64,000 nt of DNA. Source: Fibrobacter sp. (lineage in GTDB: Bacteria > Fibrobacterota > Fibrobacteria > Fibrobacterales > Fibrobacteraceae). Under the pieces are notes generated by a model. The model did no database searches. It saw only the letters and a list, made by a program, of their open reading frames with translations, and was not told where the DNA came from. Shown piece after piece: positions 28,641 through 35,356 of the stretch. The number at the start of each line of letters is the position of its first letter. Position 1 is the stretch's first letter. The position numbers and the translations under genes were made by a program. The stretch is from NCBI GenBank assembly GCA_024399015.1, contig JAKSIC010000001.1:310001-374000 (forward strand), read 5' to 3'.

Positions 28641-29264
28641 TTACGGATTATAGTGGTCAAAGGATTCCATCATGTCTATCACATACTTATCCGGATTATC
28701 CATCGGATTAACAGTGTAGGCTGTGACGACATAGAAATTACCCTTTTCCGTCAATTTAACCGCGGAACACTCACGGAAATCATCTTTACCCTCAAGGCAA
28801 ATCAGCCCATACCCGTTTTCCTTATTGAAGGAAGAAGAAAGTACGGAACCTCCTTTCAAGGGTTCATAATTCTCAAAAGAATTCTCGGCGTCCCACTGCA
28901 TAAAGTACATAACTACAGCAGAATCCGAAGCCATTGGAGGGGGCGTGAAGGAGCTATCGCGTTCAACCAGGGATCTTGTTGCTCCTCGAGCCGTCAAATT
29001 CAAACTAGGACTTTCTACTTCGCCCAAAACAAACTGAACTCTGAATACGCCATGTTCAATAGAATAAGTTGCTACCCTATAAGCCCACTGTTCATTTGGC
29101 ATAAACGGCAAAGTAAACTCCACCGGTTCCGGATGAGGAACCTGCAAATACGTGCCTCGCTTTGTCCACTTGTACTGGCCAATGCGAATAGCATCCTTGG
29201 AGGCACAACCTTCCAAAAGAATCAATGCAAAAAGGCCTATTACTAAAGCAAAATGTTTTTTCAT
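28641..29264 (-). CDS. lipoprotein of unknown function
   Basis: The 207-residue protein has a short signal peptide with lipobox LEGC (cysteine about residue 19). The mature part appears beta-rich (YRVATYSIEHGVFRVQFVLG) and carries a pair of cysteines (ICLEGKDDFRECSAV). It lies upstream of the P-II-like genes only by neighbourhood on the same strand, with 22 bp to the P-II-like gene end, so it could be the last gene of that operon. No family is recognised. Confidence 0.6.
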   Translation of the reverse strand: MKKHFALVIGLFALILLEGCASKDAIRIGQYKWTKRGTYLQVPHPEPVEFTLPFMPNEQWAYRVATYSIEHGVFRVQFVLGEVESPSLNLTARGATRSLVERDSSFTPPPMASDSAVVMYFMQWDAENSFENYEPLKGGSVLSSSFNKENGYGLICLEGKDDFRECSAVKLTEKGNFYVVTAYTVNPMDNPDKYVIDMMESFDHYNP

Positions 29265-29285: not shown

Positions 29286-29735
29286 CTACTTCTTCTCAGA
29301 GGGCTTCACGATGGAAGCCATTTTCTGGGTAAAGCGCTGAGCAAGAGAAGCATTTTCATCGTCCTTGGTGCCAGCCTTTTCTGCAGCGGCAGCCTTGGCT
29401 GCAGCGATTGCTTCGGGCTTCCAAGGAGTCAAGCCAACAACGTTATCAACGGGCAGAGAGAACGCAATGCCCTGGCCCATGGTATCAAGGCCAGCCTTCT
29501 GGTACAAGGAATGAAGAACAGCATCCTTGATTTTAGAATCCACCAGAATCATCACGATTTCCTTTTCCGGCTGGATTGCAATATGGAAGAAGGATTCCGC
29601 TTCCTTGTTTGCGGTACCGCGGGCATTCAGAATCGTACCGCCACGGGCGCCAGCTTCCTTGGCAGCGTCCATCACCATTTCGGAGAAGCCGTTATTCACA
29701 ATGCAAAAGATGACTTCGTGATTATATGCGCTCAT
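29286..29735 (-). CDS. P-II-like signalling protein (second of pair)
   Basis: The 149-residue protein has the ferredoxin-like P-II fold signature: AAKEAGARGGTILNARGT in the T-loop/B-loop region (about 23-40), then EKEIVMILVDSKIKDAVLH. A C-terminal lysine- and alanine-rich tail of about 45 residues follows. There is no tyrosine at the usual uridylylation site. P-II proteins sense ATP/ADP/2-oxoglutarate or other nucleotides and gate a partner, here plausibly the neighbouring DUF1538 membrane protein. Its ATG overlaps the stop of the other P-II-like gene by 4 bp. Confidence 0.75.
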   Translation of the reverse strand: MSAYNHEVIFCIVNNGFSEMVMDAAKEAGARGGTILNARGTANKEAESFFHIAIQPEKEIVMILVDSKIKDAVLHSLYQKAGLDTMGQGIAFSLPVDNVVGLTPWKPEAIAAAKAAAAEKAGTKDDENASLAQRFTQKMASIVKPSEKK

Positions 29736-30160
29736 TTTTCCTGTCTCCGAACCGCGTCGCGGTTATCGCTTAAAAAATTAAAGATGGACTTGCCGATAAT
29801 GCTTGCCATCGGAATCGTGTAGGCGATACCTCTGCCGCCAGGAATAGTATTGAACTTTTCCTCAAGGCTTTCAAGGGCAGCAGGCAAGTGGTCTTCGCCA
29901 ATAATGCTAATAATCAAGGCCCTGTCGGAATCCAGAAGGCCCATAGCCGTAGCGATTTCCTTGGGGGCGGTGCCCTTTCCGTAAACTACCGTCTGCATAT
30001 TCACGCCAAAAGACTGAATATGGTCCATGAAAAAATCGGCCTTGGCACGACTGACCACAGTCATCATGATTTTCAACTTGTTCATGGAAACGGCAGAATG
30101 ACCATCGGTAACAGCGCGGCCGCGTCTTCTTACGGGATTGAATCTTCCAATATCAGCCAT
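29732..30160 (-). CDS. P-II-like signalling protein (first of pair)
   Basis: The 142-residue protein has an N-terminal basic extension (about 1-25, RRRGRAV) then a P-II-like core: KLKIMMTVVSRAKADFFMDH, a VVYGKGTAPKEI loop, and RALIISIIGEDHLPAALESL. It differs strongly from the next protein, so they may form a heteromer or sense different ligands. It starts 7 bp after the DUF1538 gene with AGGTAAGG upstream. An internal start at codon 26 would still keep the core. Confidence 0.72.
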   Translation of the reverse strand: MADIGRFNPVRRRGRAVTDGHSAVSMNKLKIMMTVVSRAKADFFMDHIQSFGVNMQTVVYGKGTAPKEIATAMGLLDSDRALIISIIGEDHLPAALESLEEKFNTIPGGRGIAYTIPMASIIGKSIFNFLSDNRDAVRRQEK

Positions 30161-30167
30161 GCCTTAC

Positions 30168-31700
30168 CTACACAAAGTCAATAATCTGTTCATCATCCGC
30201 ATCCTGGATGCGACGCATCATCATACGATTACGGAGGGTTCTGGAAAGAATCGCCTTAAAGCCAAGAACCTGAATCGTAATCAACGGAGTCATGGCCACC
30301 ATGGCCACAATGCCAAATGCAAAATTCAAAATGGCATCGCCACCGCCGTGAACAGAAGCGCAGGCGCCAATAGCCAAAGGCAGAATAAAACTGGAAGTCA
30401 AAGGACCGCTGGCCACGCCACCAGAGTCAAAGGCAATGGCCGTATAAAGTTTCGGCACAAAGAAGGACAAACCCAGAGAAATAAAATATCCAGGAATCAA
30501 ATAGTAGATCAAGGGGAAACCATAAATCAGGCGAAGCATGGAAAGGCCAATGGAAATACCCACACCAACACTCAAAGCAATCAGCATGGAACGCTTGGTC
30601 ACCAAGCCACCGGTGATTTCTTCGACCTGCTTATTCAAAACATGAACCGCAGGTTCTGCAAGCACCACCACCATACCAATCACAAAACCGGAAATCACCA
30701 AGGCCTTGGAACTTTGTGCCAACTGCTGACCCAGTTCAAAACCAATAGGCATAAAGCCCACAGCCACAGCCGTAAGGAAAATCACCAAGCCAACAAAAGT
30801 GTAGATAATGCCAAAGCCAATCTGCATCAACTTGGTCTTGGTCAGTTTCAACACAAAGAACTGCAATGCCGTAAAGAAGGCTACAATCAGGCCCAGGGCA
30901 ACAATCACTTCCTTAGCCACCCTAAGAACAGTCGGCAAAAAATTCCTACCCAGGTTCGCATCAATGGAGTAGGCGCTTTCAGAAAGTTCGTAAGTCAAGT
31001 CGCCCTTGGCAAAAAGCAACAAGCCCATCAAGGCAAGAATAGGGCCCACAGAGCAAAGGGCAATCAAGCCGAAACTGTTTTCATTAGCATTGCGGCCGCC
31101 AATGGCACCGGCCACACCCACGCCCAACGCCATAATAAAAGGCACCGTAATGGGGCCCGTGGTAACGCCACCGCTGTCAAAAGCCAAGGGAACGAAAGTA
31201 GACTTGCCCATAGAAATCATCAGCATGCCCAACATGAAAAGCACCATGTAGAAGAAGATGATGATAGAAGACAAATCCTTCTTAAATACAATCTTGATAA
31301 TGGACAACAGCAGGAAAATTCCCACGCCAACGCCCACAACGCCAATCAATAGTTTCGGGTGTACTGCATTAGAAACCTGTTCTGCAAGCACCGACAAATC
31401 CGGTTCCGCAATGGTAATAAGCACGCCCATCACAAAGCACACAGAAACCAACAAAAGCAAACGGCGGGACTTTGCCAAACCGGAACCCACATGTTCTCCC
31501 ATAGGAGTCATGGCCAGGTCAGCACCCAAGTTAAAAAGGCCAATGCCAATCACCAGGAAAACGGCGCAAATGGCAAAAACAATCATCTGCTTAACGCTCA
31601 GGGTCACCAAAGGCGTATGGGCCACCAGAAGAACGATCAGCGTTATAGGCAACACCGATGCAAAGGATTCTTTCAGTTTAGCTAGCAGGGGACTCAACAT
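30168..31700 (-). CDS. DUF1538 multi-pass membrane protein
   Basis: The 510-residue protein contains two copies of the DUF1538 domain. Paired landmarks show the internal duplication: FDSGGVTTGPITVPFI and FDSGGVASGPLTSSFI, as well as IAEPDLSVLAEQV and LAEPAVHVLNKQV. About 12-14 membrane helices are predicted by eye. The family is thought to be transport-related but the substrate is unknown. Two P-II-like genes follow directly, and this suggests a channel or transporter gated by a P-II protein, as AmtB is by GlnK. It is the first gene of its operon. Confidence 0.82.
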   Translation of the reverse strand: MLSPLLAKLKESFASVLPITLIVLLVAHTPLVTLSVKQMIVFAICAVFLVIGIGLFNLGADLAMTPMGEHVGSGLAKSRRLLLLVSVCFVMGVLITIAEPDLSVLAEQVSNAVHPKLLIGVVGVGVGIFLLLSIIKIVFKKDLSSIIIFFYMVLFMLGMLMISMGKSTFVPLAFDSGGVTTGPITVPFIMALGVGVAGAIGGRNANENSFGLIALCSVGPILALMGLLLFAKGDLTYELSESAYSIDANLGRNFLPTVLRVAKEVIVALGLIVAFFTALQFFVLKLTKTKLMQIGFGIIYTFVGLVIFLTAVAVGFMPIGFELGQQLAQSSKALVISGFVIGMVVVLAEPAVHVLNKQVEEITGGLVTKRSMLIALSVGVGISIGLSMLRLIYGFPLIYYLIPGYFISLGLSFFVPKLYTAIAFDSGGVASGPLTSSFILPLAIGACASVHGGGDAILNFAFGIVAMVAMTPLITIQVLGFKAILSRTLRNRMMMRRIQDADDEQIIDFV

Positions 31701-31742: not shown

Positions 31743-32345
31743 CTAAAGTGTTTCAACCACTTTCAATACTTCTTCTACGGCCTCCTGGGTAAATCCATCC
31801 AGAAGTTCAGAGACTATGGTGGCAAAGGCACGCATGTCTCCGTCGGCAAATTCCTTGGAACCGTCAAATCGCTTTGCCCAAAGATCGGAATCCCCGTTAG
31901 GCTTACGCATTCCCATCTGTACCGTCAAATGTGCGAACTTTCCCTCGGGCTTAATCACTTCCTCCAAGGCAACCACATGAATAGAAAATTCAAAGTCCGG
32001 CTTTGCAGTCAAAGCACTTTCCACATGCTGGAAAATACCAGACTGTTCGAAGCGCTGAGCCACAGACTGTTCAATCAAATGTTCCGGACGTGTAGCCCAA
32101 GAAGAATTATTATAGAACATAAAGTCATAGGGCGATTCCCTATAGACAATGTTATTTCTACGGTAAGCCGGATCGATTGTTGCGGTTTTTACAAACAACC
32201 TGTAGGCGAAAGGTTTTTCCACAACAGCCTTTCCTTCGGGAAGAACCACGGTATAGTAGCGCATGGCCTGGGGGGCTCCACCAAAGCAACCGTTCAATAC
32301 GAAAGCTGCAAAGGCACCACACAAAATCATCATCAACTTTTTCAT
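31743..32345 (-). CDS. ABC transport auxiliary lipoprotein (PqiC-like)
   Basis: The 200-residue protein has a signal peptide with lipobox LNGC. The mature part matches the ABC_trans_aux/PqiC type: RYYTVVLPEG, IVYRESPYDFMFYNNSSWA and FEFSIHVVALEEV. Such outer-membrane lipoproteins act with MCE proteins in lipid transport across the periplasm. It is the last gene of the MlaE-MlaF-MCE operon. Confidence 0.82.
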   Translation of the reverse strand: MKKLMMILCGAFAAFVLNGCFGGAPQAMRYYTVVLPEGKAVVEKPFAYRLFVKTATIDPAYRRNNIVYRESPYDFMFYNNSSWATRPEHLIEQSVAQRFEQSGIFQHVESALTAKPDFEFSIHVVALEEVIKPEGKFAHLTVQMGMRKPNGDSDLWAKRFDGSKEFADGDMRAFATIVSELLDGFTQEAVEEVLKVVETL

Positions 32346-32359
32346 CTTAAAACCTCACC

Positions 32360-33337
32360 TTACTTCTTTTCGCTACGAATCAAACTGGACGGCGAATTCT
32401 TAATCTTTTCACTGAACTCATTGAGGTTAGCCAGAATCTCGTTCAACTGAGAAAGGCTATTGTTAAAGGAGTTCTGATTCTTGTAAAGGAACAAGTCAAC
32501 ACCCTTGGACATTTCCTCAATAGAATGAATGGTCTTTACCAAATCGTCATTCATCTGCTTTGTATCCAAGGCAGCAAGTTTCTTCTGCAGATCAATCATG
32601 GTCTTCTGGATTTCCGCAGCAAGGTGAGCCTGCTCCATTTCATCGGAAGCAGTCTTCAAGGACTTGGTAATCTTCTCCAGATTCTTAACCGGTTCTTCCA
32701 AGGACTTCACAAAGGAACTTCCATTGGAAATCATACGATTGCTGTTCTGGACAAAGGCGTCCCCATGTTCAATCATAGTGCGGCCACTCTTAGAAGCGCT
32801 TTCCAAGTTTTCCAAGGTGCGGCTAATTTTTTCCGCATTATCCGCAGAAAGAACAGTATTCAAATTATTCACCAAGACTTCCACCTTACCGAAAAGAACT
32901 TCAGCCTGGCCTGTAATTTCATTAATGCGGTTGACACCCACCTTCACTTCGGATCCAGCAGGCAAATTGGGTTCGCTAATGTCACCTCCGGACAGAATCA
33001 AATAGCGGCTACCTGTCAAGGAAATCCTGCTGGTCATCTGCACTGAAGTACCGGCCTTAATAGGTGTTTCGGGGCTCACTTCAAACCAAACCTTCACCTT
33101 GTTCATGTCGGAAGAATCAATTTGAGCAGACTTCACGCGGCCCACATCAATACCACTCAACATCACGCGGGCATCCACAGAAAGCCCCTGCACTGACTCA
33201 TCAAAAACTGAGTAGTACATCACCTTCTGCTCTTTCAACTTACCTCCAATGAGGTAACCCAAGAAGCCTAAAATTCCCATAATGCAAAGCAACAGGAACA
33301 GGCCTAGTCTAATTCGTTCTGTACGTGTCGTTTCCAT
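32360..33337 (-). CDS. MCE-domain lipid-binding protein (MlaD-like)
   Basis: The 325-residue protein has one N-terminal membrane helix (about 9-29) and a single MCE domain (about 38-120: VQGLSVDARVMLSGIDVGRV). A long helical coiled-coil region follows (about 130-310). MCE proteins form hexameric periplasmic rings or tubes that carry phospholipid between membranes. The C-terminal coiled coil may build a tunnel, as in PqiB. It is followed by the lipoprotein with 14 bp spacing. It is 42 bp after the ATPase gene, and a palindrome lies in that gap. Confidence 0.88.
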   Translation of the reverse strand: METTRTERIRLGLFLLLCIMGILGFLGYLIGGKLKEQKVMYYSVFDESVQGLSVDARVMLSGIDVGRVKSAQIDSSDMNKVKVWFEVSPETPIKAGTSVQMTSRISLTGSRYLILSGGDISEPNLPAGSEVKVGVNRINEITGQAEVLFGKVEVLVNNLNTVLSADNAEKISRTLENLESASKSGRTMIEHGDAFVQNSNRMISNGSSFVKSLEEPVKNLEKITKSLKTASDEMEQAHLAAEIQKTMIDLQKKLAALDTKQMNDDLVKTIHSIEEMSKGVDLFLYKNQNSFNNSLSQLNEILANLNEFSEKIKNSPSSLIRSEKK

Positions 33338-33348
33338 ATCTTTCTGTC

Positions 33349-33370
33349 ATCCCGGGCACCGACCCGGGAT
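33349..33370. repeat. CCCGGG palindrome, dispersed-repeat type
   Basis: ATCCCGGG-CACCGA-CCCGGGAT is a perfect 8-bp stem between two genes of the same operon on the minus strand. The sequence matches the widespread TCATCCCGGGC...GACCCGGGATC intergenic palindrome that I know from several bacteria. On the plus strand a T-run follows, but that is the wrong direction for a terminator of this operon. Confidence 0.6.
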
Positions 33371-33379
33371 CTCTTTTTT

Positions 33380-34162
33380 TTAGTCCACAAATTCAAAGTT
33401 CAAACAATTCACATTTCCAAATTCATCAGGGCACTTTCTATCGAAGAAAGTCCGAATCTCCGGAATATTACTTTCCAGCCCCTGTTGCAACGTTCCATCC
33501 AAAAGAACCTCTCCTTGTTTCAGGAAAACGAATTTATCACAGATGGTCTTGATACTATCCAATTCATGGGTCACAATGACCACAGAAATTTTCAAGTCGT
33601 CACGAAGGGTCAAAAGCAATTCGTCCAAGGATCTTGCCGTAATCGGGTCCAAGCCTGCAGAGGGTTCATCACAGAAAAGCAATTCCGGATCCAGAGCCAA
33701 GGCACGGGCCAAGGCAGCGCGTTTCTTCATGCCGCCGGAAAGTTCCGAAGGATACTTGTTAAAGGCATGCATCATGTGAACCTTCTCCAAACGGTCCGCA
33801 ATGATTTCATCCATAATTTTCTTGGGCAGGTACGGCTTGTGTCGCTTCAAGGGCAAAGCCACATTCTCTGCAACCGTAAGGCTAGTCAGCAAGGCGCCAC
33901 CCTGGAAAAGAACACCCGTTCTCTTTCGCACGTCATCAGGAATAGGCGTCGTCGCCGGATAAGACGTGCCAAAAAAGGAGATATTTCCTCCTAGAGGTTT
34001 TTCCAACTGCAGAATATTATTCAGCAAGGTGGATTTACCGCAACCGGATCCACCAAGGATTACGCGAATTTCACTGGGAGCCACTTCGAAGCTCACATCC
34101 TTCAAGATTACCCTGCCACCATAACCGGCCTTCAGATGTTCCACTTTAAGTAAAGGAGTCAT
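33380..34162 (-). CDS. MlaF-like ABC transporter ATPase (MCE operon)
   Basis: The 260-residue ATPase (ATG 34162, GAGG upstream) has Walker A LGGSGCGKSTLL, signature LSGGMKKRAALARAL and Walker B ELLFCDEPSAGLD, with VIVTHEL as the switch region. It lies between the MlaE permease (8 bp upstream) and the MCE gene, so it powers this lipid transporter. It is not the same as the ATPase at 4629, whose signature differs. An earlier in-frame start is unlikely. Confidence 0.9.
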   Translation of the reverse strand: MTPLLKVEHLKAGYGGRVILKDVSFEVAPSEIRVILGGSGCGKSTLLNNILQLEKPLGGNISFFGTSYPATTPIPDDVRKRTGVLFQGGALLTSLTVAENVALPLKRHKPYLPKKIMDEIIADRLEKVHMMHAFNKYPSELSGGMKKRAALARALALDPELLFCDEPSAGLDPITARSLDELLLTLRDDLKISVVIVTHELDSIKTICDKFVFLKQGEVLLDGTLQQGLESNIPEIRTFFDRKCPDEFGNVNCLNFEFVD

Positions 34163-34170
34163 ACATACCT

Positions 34171-35229
34171 CTAGTAGAATACGAAGGAGAAAAGGGCATC
34201 CGCAAGAATAATTCCTGCGATGGAATAAACAACGCAAACCGTGGTGGCCTTACCTACAGCATCGGCGCCACCGCGGGCCTTAAAACCTTGATGGCAAGCA
34301 ATCAAAGTAACAATCCAGCCAAAGACCATGGACTTCACCACGCTCTTGAACAAAAGCAGCAAAGGCAGGTTCTCTCGAAGGCCCACCCAATAATTAGTAG
34401 GGGAAACCTCACAGAACCAGAACGCCACCAAGAAACCGGCAAAGCACCCGATCATGGACGCTACAAAGGAGAGAAGGGGTACCGCAATGGTCATAGCCTT
34501 AAAGCGGGGCACAATCAGGTACTGGATAGGATGAATGCCCATGGTACGCAAGGCCTTGATTTCTTCAGCCACGTTCATGCTGGCGATTTCAGCAGTAATG
34601 GAACTGCCCGAACGGCCAGCCAAAATAATAGCGGTAAGCATGGGGCCAAGTTCTGCAAACATCAAAAAGCCTACGCCTACGGAAAGGTATTCTCCGGCGC
34701 CAAAAGTGTTCAGCTGGGAAGCGCTCTGCAGCGACAACGTAAAGCCGATCAAGAACACCAGCAAAAACACAATGCCCGACGCCTCGCTACCCAGGCGCAG
34801 CAGTTGTTGCCCCACGCCGCCGAAAGGCAAGCGCTTCTTATCAAAGCGCCCCAAAAAAGTCCAGTAAAGGCTTTCGCTTAAAAGAAAGAGTAAGGTCTTG
34901 AGGGTGTCCAGCAGCCGGAACCCCGCATCCCCCAGGCGCTCCAGCGGGCCCATGGAAGCCCCCGCCTCAGCCTTCGGGATGTCAATTTTTCGAATTTGAG
35001 CGATTTCCGCCTTCATTTCGGGGCTGAAATGGGCCAAGCGCACATGGCGCCCGAATTTTTCCGCCGCCCCAGCCACCGCCGCAAAAAAGGCCCTGCTTTC
35101 GGAGCTAAAATCCGCAAAAACGGTTCCATCCAGCTCCAAATCAGAATTTTTCAGGATATGTAAGCACCGGGACAACCAAAAACGGTAATCCTTGGGGCTA
35201 AAACGCTCCGGCAAAGCAATTGTTGCCAT
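34171..35229 (-). CDS. MlaE-family permease with N-terminal extension
   Basis: The 352-residue protein (ATG 35229; a GTG three codons earlier is possible) has the MlaE core (about 100-352) with ELGPMLTAIILAGRSGSSITA and EEIKALRTMGIHPIQY. About 100 extra residues at the N terminus look like a STAS-type domain (DGTVFADFSSESRAFFAAV), as seen in some MlaE permeases. It is the first gene of the operon MlaE-MlaF-MCE-lipoprotein. Confidence 0.86.
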   Translation of the reverse strand: MATIALPERFSPKDYRFWLSRCLHILKNSDLELDGTVFADFSSESRAFFAAVAGAAEKFGRHVRLAHFSPEMKAEIAQIRKIDIPKAEAGASMGPLERLGDAGFRLLDTLKTLLFLLSESLYWTFLGRFDKKRLPFGGVGQQLLRLGSEASGIVFLLVFLIGFTLSLQSASQLNTFGAGEYLSVGVGFLMFAELGPMLTAIILAGRSGSSITAEIASMNVAEEIKALRTMGIHPIQYLIVPRFKAMTIAVPLLSFVASMIGCFAGFLVAFWFCEVSPTNYWVGLRENLPLLLLFKSVVKSMVFGWIVTLIACHQGFKARGGADAVGKATTVCVVYSIAGIILADALFSFVFY

Positions 35230-35356
35230 TATCTCCACACCCCCATATTAGCAATTTTAAGCATATTTAACCACTTTTTTTCTTTTTAAGGCTATCTACA
35301 TCACATTTTTCACTTTTTTTGCAACCTTTTATATATTCAGTGCATCCAAGAGGTAT

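Follow-up and report, generated by a model that had tools for sequence, protein, structure and literature searches.

A DUF1538 membrane protein encoded with two divergent PII-like proteins in Fibrobacter: a possible cation/proton antiporter under a mixed PII-type regulator

Introduction

PII-type control of membrane transporters is known for SbtB acting on SbtA and for GlnK acting on AmtB (PMC8352866), and the SbtB trimer is described as docking onto the cytoplasmic face of SbtA (PMC8352866). PII trimers of mixed composition are on record for GlnB and GlnK of Escherichia coli (van Heeswijk 2000, cited in PMC5448240). In the DUF1538 family of membrane proteins, the only characterised members that we found are UmpA and UmpB of Halomonas zhaodongensis, reported to form a heterodimer that antiports Na+, Li+, and K+ against H+ (PMC5484666). 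Here we describe a locus in a 64,000-nucleotide stretch of the genome of a rumen Fibrobacter sp. (contig JAKSIC010000001.1; the whole stretch is hereafter called the window), in which the gene for a two-repeat DUF1538 protein is followed by the genes for two different PII-like proteins, designated A and B.

The locus shares with UmpAB the DUF1538 family and two homologous halves acting together, in UmpAB as a heterodimer (PMC5484666), and differs in that the two halves form one chain and are followed by two PII-like genes; the terms PII and P-II are absent from the main text of the UmpAB report, in which the last open reading frame of the cloned fragment is umpB (ORF4). With SbtA–SbtB it has in common a transporter gene and a PII-like gene in one operon and a predicted fold of A that is near to SbtB (VIA-align Z-score, up to 10.1), whereas the window DUF1538 protein is without clear similarity to SbtA, and the PII-like proteins are two instead of one and appear to have shorter T-loops. 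As in AmtB–GlnK, a PII-type protein is found beside a membrane transporter (PMC8352866), but A and B take the place of the one GlnK, and neither contains the canonical GDGK B-loop or RIRTGE C-loop of GlnB/GlnK. The top solved fold match to A is CPII from Thiomonas intermedia (PDB entry ID, 5d4l, and others; identity, 17–20% in the best CPII rows). CPII is a lone PII-like protein, the partner transporter of which is unrelated. Whereas the GlnB and GlnK paralogues of E. coli are encoded apart and act on many targets, the A/B pair of the window type is fixed beside one transporter and is often fused.

No paper linking DUF1538 or UmpAB to PII was found in a search that left most subscription journals outside, which is weak evidence, and the public annotation of plasmid records labels the DUF1538 neighbour a 'P-II family nitrogen regulator'. 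PII-gated transport is known already, and the pairing of DUF1538 with PII would be a variation on it. Our preferred reading of the trio, for which we see the balance as standing about level, is that the DUF1538 protein acts as a cation/proton antiporter like its UmpAB relatives and is gated by a mixed complex of the two PII-like proteins.

Recurrence of the trio

The initial annotation described a two-domain DUF1538 gene followed by two strongly divergent P-II-like genes with a 4-bp overlap, and the gene coordinates, the match to Pfam PF07556, and the 22% identity between A and B all agree with this description. The close-relative set consists of the best 80 of 580 candidate DUF1538 loci, and is biased to close relatives, unlike the draw of 299 genomes described below; it contains mainly gut Clostridia and Bacteroidales, some metagenome-assembled genomes (MAGs) of Erysipelotrichaceae type, and two Fibrobacter. 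DUF1538 followed by separate A and B genes, with the order kept, was found in 78 of these 80 loci, and in the other two (L050 and L065) the contig edge is reached after the first PII gene.

At the genome level, DUF1538 was present in 83 of 167 Fibrobacterota genomes, 101 of 299 drawn Bacillota genomes, and 8 of 198 drawn Bacteroidota genomes, the latter two being draws from the phyla of a Ruminiclostridium MAG and a Bacteroidales MAG, with the phylum names inferred. A reciprocal scan of the 299 Bacillota genomes with the B-type profile found a B-type PII in 103, of which 100 were shared with DUF1538 (Fisher p, 6e-75, uncorrected for kinship). The sole Bacillota genome with DUF1538 only has stop codons inside the match (a broken gene), and the three with PII only are weak matches (E, 1e-7, 5e-7, and 2e-11). 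The co-occurrence that the initial annotation had proposed to check, and the lack of which would have spoken against it, is thus borne out in other genomes, and a chance adjacency of the trio is ruled out by the 78/80 loci and the 100/101 genomes. The recurrent pairing rather suggests an ion transporter under a mixed sensor than a chance gene cluster.

Fold and conserved motifs of the PII-like proteins

In the Pfam P-II search, B scored 25.4 bits, marginally over the cut-off of 25, and A scored 15.6 bits, under the cut-off, so that a fold test was required for A. Judged by alignment, A and B are homologous though distant (BLASTP E, ~1e-7 in an eight-sequence set; local alignment score, 99 versus 28.6 ± 4.2 for shuffles; profile–profile comparison, 98.2%). 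An AlphaFold2 model of A, computed from an input alignment of 79 A proteins, had a mean pLDDT of 80.6, with ten-residue blocks at 81–98 over residues 31–120, ~57 beyond, and 63–65 over the first 30 residues. In a Foldseek search with this model, the best 50 of 123 rows at E ≤ 0.001 were all PII or PII-like proteins, and VIA-align placed CPII at the top (5d4l; Z-score, 11.1; root-mean-squared deviation, 2.4; 86 aligned), together with TTHA0516 (10.6) and SbtB (10.1). Because ferredoxin-like proteins unrelated to PII (BipA, NIF3, and spliceosome parts) also reach a Z-score of ~9 in VIA-align, the PII call for A further needs the Foldseek result and the sequence profiles. On this combined evidence A is predicted to have the PII (ferredoxin-like) fold, and the P-II fold that had been assigned to both proteins is upheld, for B by the marginal Pfam match and for A by prediction. 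Sequence searches of the PDB gave only chance-level rows for A (E, 1.8), weak P-II rows for B (best E, 0.052), and, for the lone PII encoded on a Chelativorans plasmid, 9p1x as the top row (E, 0.0023).

The connection between strands 2 and 3 in the A model comprises ~16 residues including a small helix, and the long T-loop of canonical PII would accordingly be missing. When compared by eye, the conserved stretches read MGQGIAF...VVGL in B and PGGRGIAY...IIG in A, versus IGDGKIF...IRIRTGE in the canonical PII of the same genome. The alignment of 79 A proteins has near-invariant or invariant residues at V36, N54, Q56, G63, T64, G111, and G123. A GGT-like motif, which we take to mark the position of the ligand pocket in canonical PII, is present in 176/184 B domains, 33/33 evaluable single PIIs, and 57/184 A domains, and is gone from A in the window clade; a B-loop-like GxGIAF pattern is found in 129/184 B and 107/184 A domains.

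Profiles were built for the two types from the same two-PII loci that were then classified (184 of 185 used, one row being lost to a domain-count mismatch; L191 and L201, with two clusters each, were omitted), and with them the first domains were A-type in 173/184 and the second domains B-type in 184/184. In the window, A scored 137.8 with the A-type hidden Markov model (HMM) versus 34.9 with the B-type HMM, and B scored 166.2 with the B-type versus 92.5 with the A-type HMM. Single PIIs were B-type in 33 of 35 cases, the two A-type ones being contig-end cuts. On a tree of 143 sampled domains, which rests on few columns and has several long branches, the A label takes 2 changes versus 41 with shuffled labels. 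From the profile classing, the B-type singles, and the tree, B looks like the general PII type and A like one old, diverged duplicate.

Locus architectures and PII copy number

The locus census comprises 236 rows, with loci merged if the last 80 residues of DUF1538 are identical. It covers the listed DUF1538 matches of the drawn genomes, without second copies ranked lower, and, for Fibrobacterota, the 30 best matches and eight more out of the 83 genomes with DUF1538. Four loci resembling frameshifted fused copies (L021, L119, L137, and L220) were counted as split, and the contig-cut rows (L150, L202, and L256, each solo with two PII; L244, solo without PII; and six with a cut DUF1538) were excluded from the copy-number statements.

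Among 112 distinct loci from the drawn Bacillota genomes, a fused DUF1538 is accompanied by a two-domain PII protein in 44, by two separate PII genes in 1, and by no adjacent PII in 1. A split DUF1538 pair is accompanied by one PII in 22, a two-domain PII in 16 (including L220), two PII genes in 6, and no PII in 1 (a broken copy); a solo half has one PII in 11, and 10 rows are cut by a contig end. Fused pairs therefore have two PII domains in 45/46 loci, and solo halves clear of contig edges have exactly one PII in 11/11. Seven Bacteroidota rows consist of split pairs with two PII genes (2), fused pairs with two PII genes (2), with a two-domain PII (2), or with three PII (1), and seven rows from other Fibrobacterota have a three-PII protein (6) or a single PII (1). 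A ratio of one PII domain to each DUF1538 repeat would account for the copy numbers of the solo and fused forms, whereas the one-PII split pairs do not demand it. Two loci, L191 (G307) and L201 (G273), contain a tandem pair of split-DUF1538 and PII units.

In many Bacillota genomes A and B are contained in one chain with A first, which suggests that they work as a unit. Such a fusion would fix a 1:1 ratio, and would suit an A trimer plus a B trimer as well as one mixed assembly. The same forms occur on plasmids, with a fused transporter and one PII protein of ~222–224 aa in Peptoclostridium, Paraclostridium, and Vescimonas, and a split DUF1538 pair and one PII in Methylocystis and Chelativorans; in the former group, Pfam P-II detects two stretches in Peptoclostridium and Paraclostridium and one in Vescimonas, and our own profile finds two in each.

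Seven rows (L190/L288, L123/L287, L124, L132, L135, L125, and L137), from one Bacteroidota genome and from Fibrobacterota families other than that of the window, contain a single-chain protein of ~376–416 aa that has three PII-like domains and follows a long DUF1538 (630–708 aa; interrupted in L137). None of four such proteins exceeded the Pfam P-II cut-off (best, 23.7 bits in L137). With the profiles built here, the third domain scored 13–28 bits (51 in L190), and all three domains scored >20 bits in 3/7 rows; the profile–profile support was 96.4% for the third and 94.2% for the first domain. The three-PII chain is possibly a covalent PII pseudo-trimer. The arrangement that the initial annotation had proposed as distinct is not singular, being one form of a widespread cassette in which the number of PII domains varies from one to three.

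The DUF1538 protein and its C-terminal tail

The window DUF1538 protein matched PF07556 with 404.9 bits (cut-off, 22.6) in two stretches corresponding to repeats, and its halves align to each other with a score of 238 versus 48 ± 8 in shuffles. In 79 aligned sequences, the motifs AEP(D/A) and FDSGGV(T/A)(T/S)GP are each found once per half, with nearly all of their columns invariant or 90% conserved. The AlphaFold2 model, of high confidence (pLDDT, 90.1; pTM, 0.89), is all-helical with two repeats. With this model, Foldseek returned zero matches to solved structures at E ≤ 0.001 (SbtA chain 7cyf was a weak row at E 0.19 and rank 35), and the best VIA-align Z-score was 4.9, for a row other than SbtA, with no clear solved likeness. 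The missing structural match is no proof of a new fold. A sequence search of the PDB gave no match, showing that no close DUF1538 chain has been solved. Deduction of the substrate from the DUF1538 fold was dropped, because the structure searches with the confident model gave no significant match. The view of the initial annotation that the substrate is wholly unknown nevertheless has to be revised at the family level, since Na+(Li+,K+)/H+ antiport has been reported for the related UmpAB (PMC5484666).

At the C-terminus, the tail ADDEQIIDFV contains invariant residues I507 and F509, and D503 and I506 are at least 90% conserved among the 79 aligned sequences. The tail motif is present in 98/102 loci with a fused DUF1538 and two separate PII genes and in 17/51 loci with a fused DUF1538 and a fused PII pair. 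Its frequency is 0/24 in split pairs with one PII, 0/16 in split pairs with a fused PII pair, 2/10 in split pairs with two PII genes (both resembling frameshifted fused copies), 0/11 in solo DUF1538 with one PII, and 0/6 in fused DUF1538 with three PII. From this conservation, the tail is perhaps a docking site for the PII-like proteins. A covariation of the tail motif with motifs of A is not claimed, because the trait changes on the tree are too few, with one independent pair on the starred branches.

Origin and gene neighbourhood

The nearest named relatives of the window DUF1538 protein are from Fibrobacter MAGs (80–83% identical). In the DUF1538 tree, Fibrobacter is placed inside gut Clostridia, in a 42-row clade (support, 100) that also takes in Bacteroidota rows, and is well separated from the other Fibrobacterota families. 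Taken over the best aligned piece, DUF1538 has a median identity of 61% with 78 non-Fibrobacter loci of the close-relative set and of 31% with other Fibrobacterota (16 overlapping loci, 7 genomes). Judging from the tree and the identities, the cassette has probably crossed phylum borders in the herbivore gut. Viral contigs yielded 71 pattern matches, none of which is a relative. Unannotated records of a phage collection (H10–H16; four from human faeces and three from Listeria) contain DUF1538 matches, mostly short, that are possibly stray host DNA.

The features of the window locus are listed in Table 1. The first ATG of A lies 7 bp past the DUF1538 stop, and translational coupling of A and B through the ATGA overlap is probable. 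Of the 78 related loci in which the genes are separate, 76 have a candidate B start ≤30 bases from the A stop, a count leaning to short gaps because the start nearest to a 4-base overlap was chosen. Genome scans found DUF1538 as a single gene in this Fibrobacter, and P-II matches in one canonical PII on another contig and in B, with A being missed.

Table 1. Features of the DUF1538–PII locus and neighbouring genes in the window
Feature	Position	Strand	Evidence
DUF1538 two-repeat membrane protein, 510 aa, UmpAB family, single fused chain	30168..31700	-	PF07556, AlphaFold2, motifs
DUF1538 C-terminus (ADDEQIIDFV), a candidate peptide for docking of the PII-like proteins	30171..30200	-	conservation
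PII-like A, 142 aa, diverged paralogue, short T-loop	29732..30160	-	AlphaFold2, structure search, A-type HMM
PII-like B, 149 aa, conserved type, C-terminal extension	29286..29735	-	Pfam P-II, B-type HMM
ATGA overlap, A stop (ends at 29732) / B start (begins at 29735)	29732..29735	-	sequence
Mla/MCE-like ABC operon	31743..35238	-	Pfam (lipoprotein); by eye (other genes)
Small lipoprotein-like protein	28641..29264	-	
Fused membrane/spermidine-synthase protein, 973 aa	25656..28577	-	NCBIfam NF037959

No other neighbour of the trio is conserved or moves with it, the commonest family being near 9 of the 80 loci. In the window, 42 bp separate the trio from an Mla/MCE-like ATP-binding cassette (ABC) operon upstream, the ABC_trans_aux lipoprotein of which was assigned by Pfam, and the permease, ATPase, and MlaD-type genes by eye. 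MlaD- and permease-type genes were not beside the trio in the other fetched loci. Deduction of a function for the trio from these neighbours was dropped, as they have no meaningful recurrence beside it outside Fibrobacter, the ATPase by itself matching many unrelated ABC ATPases. On the other side, a small lipoprotein-like protein with zero Pfam or NCBIfam matches at E ≤ 1 is encoded 21 bp past the B stop. Further downstream is the gene for a fused membrane/spermidine-synthase protein (over the NF037959 cut-off), with homologues in 19 fetched loci, mostly of Fibrobacter.

Discussion

In the mechanism that we infer, from the ligand and the physical complex to the control direction, the tail docking, and the antiport by this member, the trio would, on the model of GlnK–AmtB and SbtB–SbtA, consist of a monovalent-cation/proton antiporter (DUF1538) and its own mixed PII-type regulator. 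B would be the conserved PII-like sensor, whose inter-subunit cleft probably binds a small ligand, for example an adenine nucleotide, and A, encoded first, would be a duplication-born, diverged paralogue that has lost part of the pocket in the window lineage. From the cytoplasmic side, the two proteins would bind the transporter together at a constant ratio, the ADDEQIIxF tail being a possible docking site, and a change in ligand state would make them slow or release ion exchange. A farther-reaching version, which we put forward as tentative, is that an obligate PII complex tracks the DUF1538 repeats (one PII type with a lone half, an A plus B hetero-assembly with the two-repeat protein, and the three-PII pseudo-trimer in other Fibrobacterota), the PII ring having changed from a homo-oligomer into a hetero-oligomer alongside an asymmetric antiporter, and A having specialised as the transporter-binding and B as the ligand-sensing subunit.

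Several observations weigh against a mixed PII complex that gates an antiporter. The T-loops of A and B appear by eye to be shorter than that of the canonical PII of the genome (in B by about five residues), and the plug seen in GlnK–AmtB and SbtB–SbtA may therefore not apply. The window DUF1538 protein scores far under the cut-offs of the UmpA and UmpB equivalogs (NF041627, 151.3 versus 490; NF041628, 135.4 versus 500), making the antiporter assignment a family-level inference. The B-type profile is the better fit for 11/184 first domains. Many PII-linked DUF1538 members are without the tail motif, and the association of this motif with the loss of GGT in A is phylogenetically confounded. Split pairs in the drawn Bacillota loci have one PII as often as two (22 versus 22), so that A is dispensable in many lineages and the copy number is not strictly bound to the repeats. 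A lone PII accompanies one fused transporter (L136/L289), and another (L200/L285, in G388) has no adjacent PII, its genome carrying a two-domain PII of the same type on another contig (L286), so that the pairing persists in the genome though not at the locus.

Instead of mixing, A and B may be separate homotrimers that bring different signals to the same transporter, an arrangement that we regard as possible but doubtful. The known PII-like proteins are mostly homotrimers, the two proteins are strongly different in sequence and have distinct conserved motifs, and even a fused A–B chain could still yield one A trimer and one B trimer; on the other hand, the 1:1 fusion in a fixed order recurs in many genomes, and the genes lie close together where they are separate.

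Another reading questions the substrate: DUF1538 would move a divalent ion or an anion such as bicarbonate, with the carbon or nitrogen state being signalled by the PII pair in the manner of SbtB or CPII. The solved fold relatives of A, namely CPII (with structures containing AMP, ADP, and bicarbonate), TTHA0516, and SbtB, are compatible with this, as are the lack of a good solved likeness of the DUF1538 model and the single assayed pair known in the family. That pair, however, is an antiporter of Na+, Li+, and K+ against H+ (PMC5484666), and a machine-learning study of growth pH reports DUF1538 among its 20 top Pfams (PMC13255231), and we are inclined to doubt a different substrate to a similar degree as separate homotrimers.

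It is quite unlikely that the PII-like pair controls a transcription factor or an enzyme and is merely co-transcribed with the transporter. PII proteins do have many targets, and DUF1538 and the PII pair are on separate contigs in one genome (L285 and L286), but DUF1538 is the sole conserved partner while the other neighbours vary freely, and the B-type PII accompanies it in 100/101 drawn genomes. Finally, an ordinary duplication in which B works and A decays as a neutral copy would agree with the lower conservation of A (median identity to the window over 78 loci, 42% versus 61% for B) and its lost GGT motif, but is highly improbable given that A is retained in 78/80 related loci with near-invariant residues of its own and forms a coherent paralogue on the tree.

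PII control is textbook knowledge for ammonium and bicarbonate transport, and none was found for cation/proton exchange. If A and B indeed form a mixed PII complex on a DUF1538 antiporter, an inherently mixed sensor would tie the energy or metabolite state of the cell directly to the Na+, K+, or pH balance in many gut and rumen bacteria. With one, two, or three PII domains accompanying its members, the transporter family offers a natural set for matching the symmetries of PII and transporter. The unnamed DUF1538 family would thereby gain a likely function, with the ADDEQIIxF tail as a target motif for mutation.

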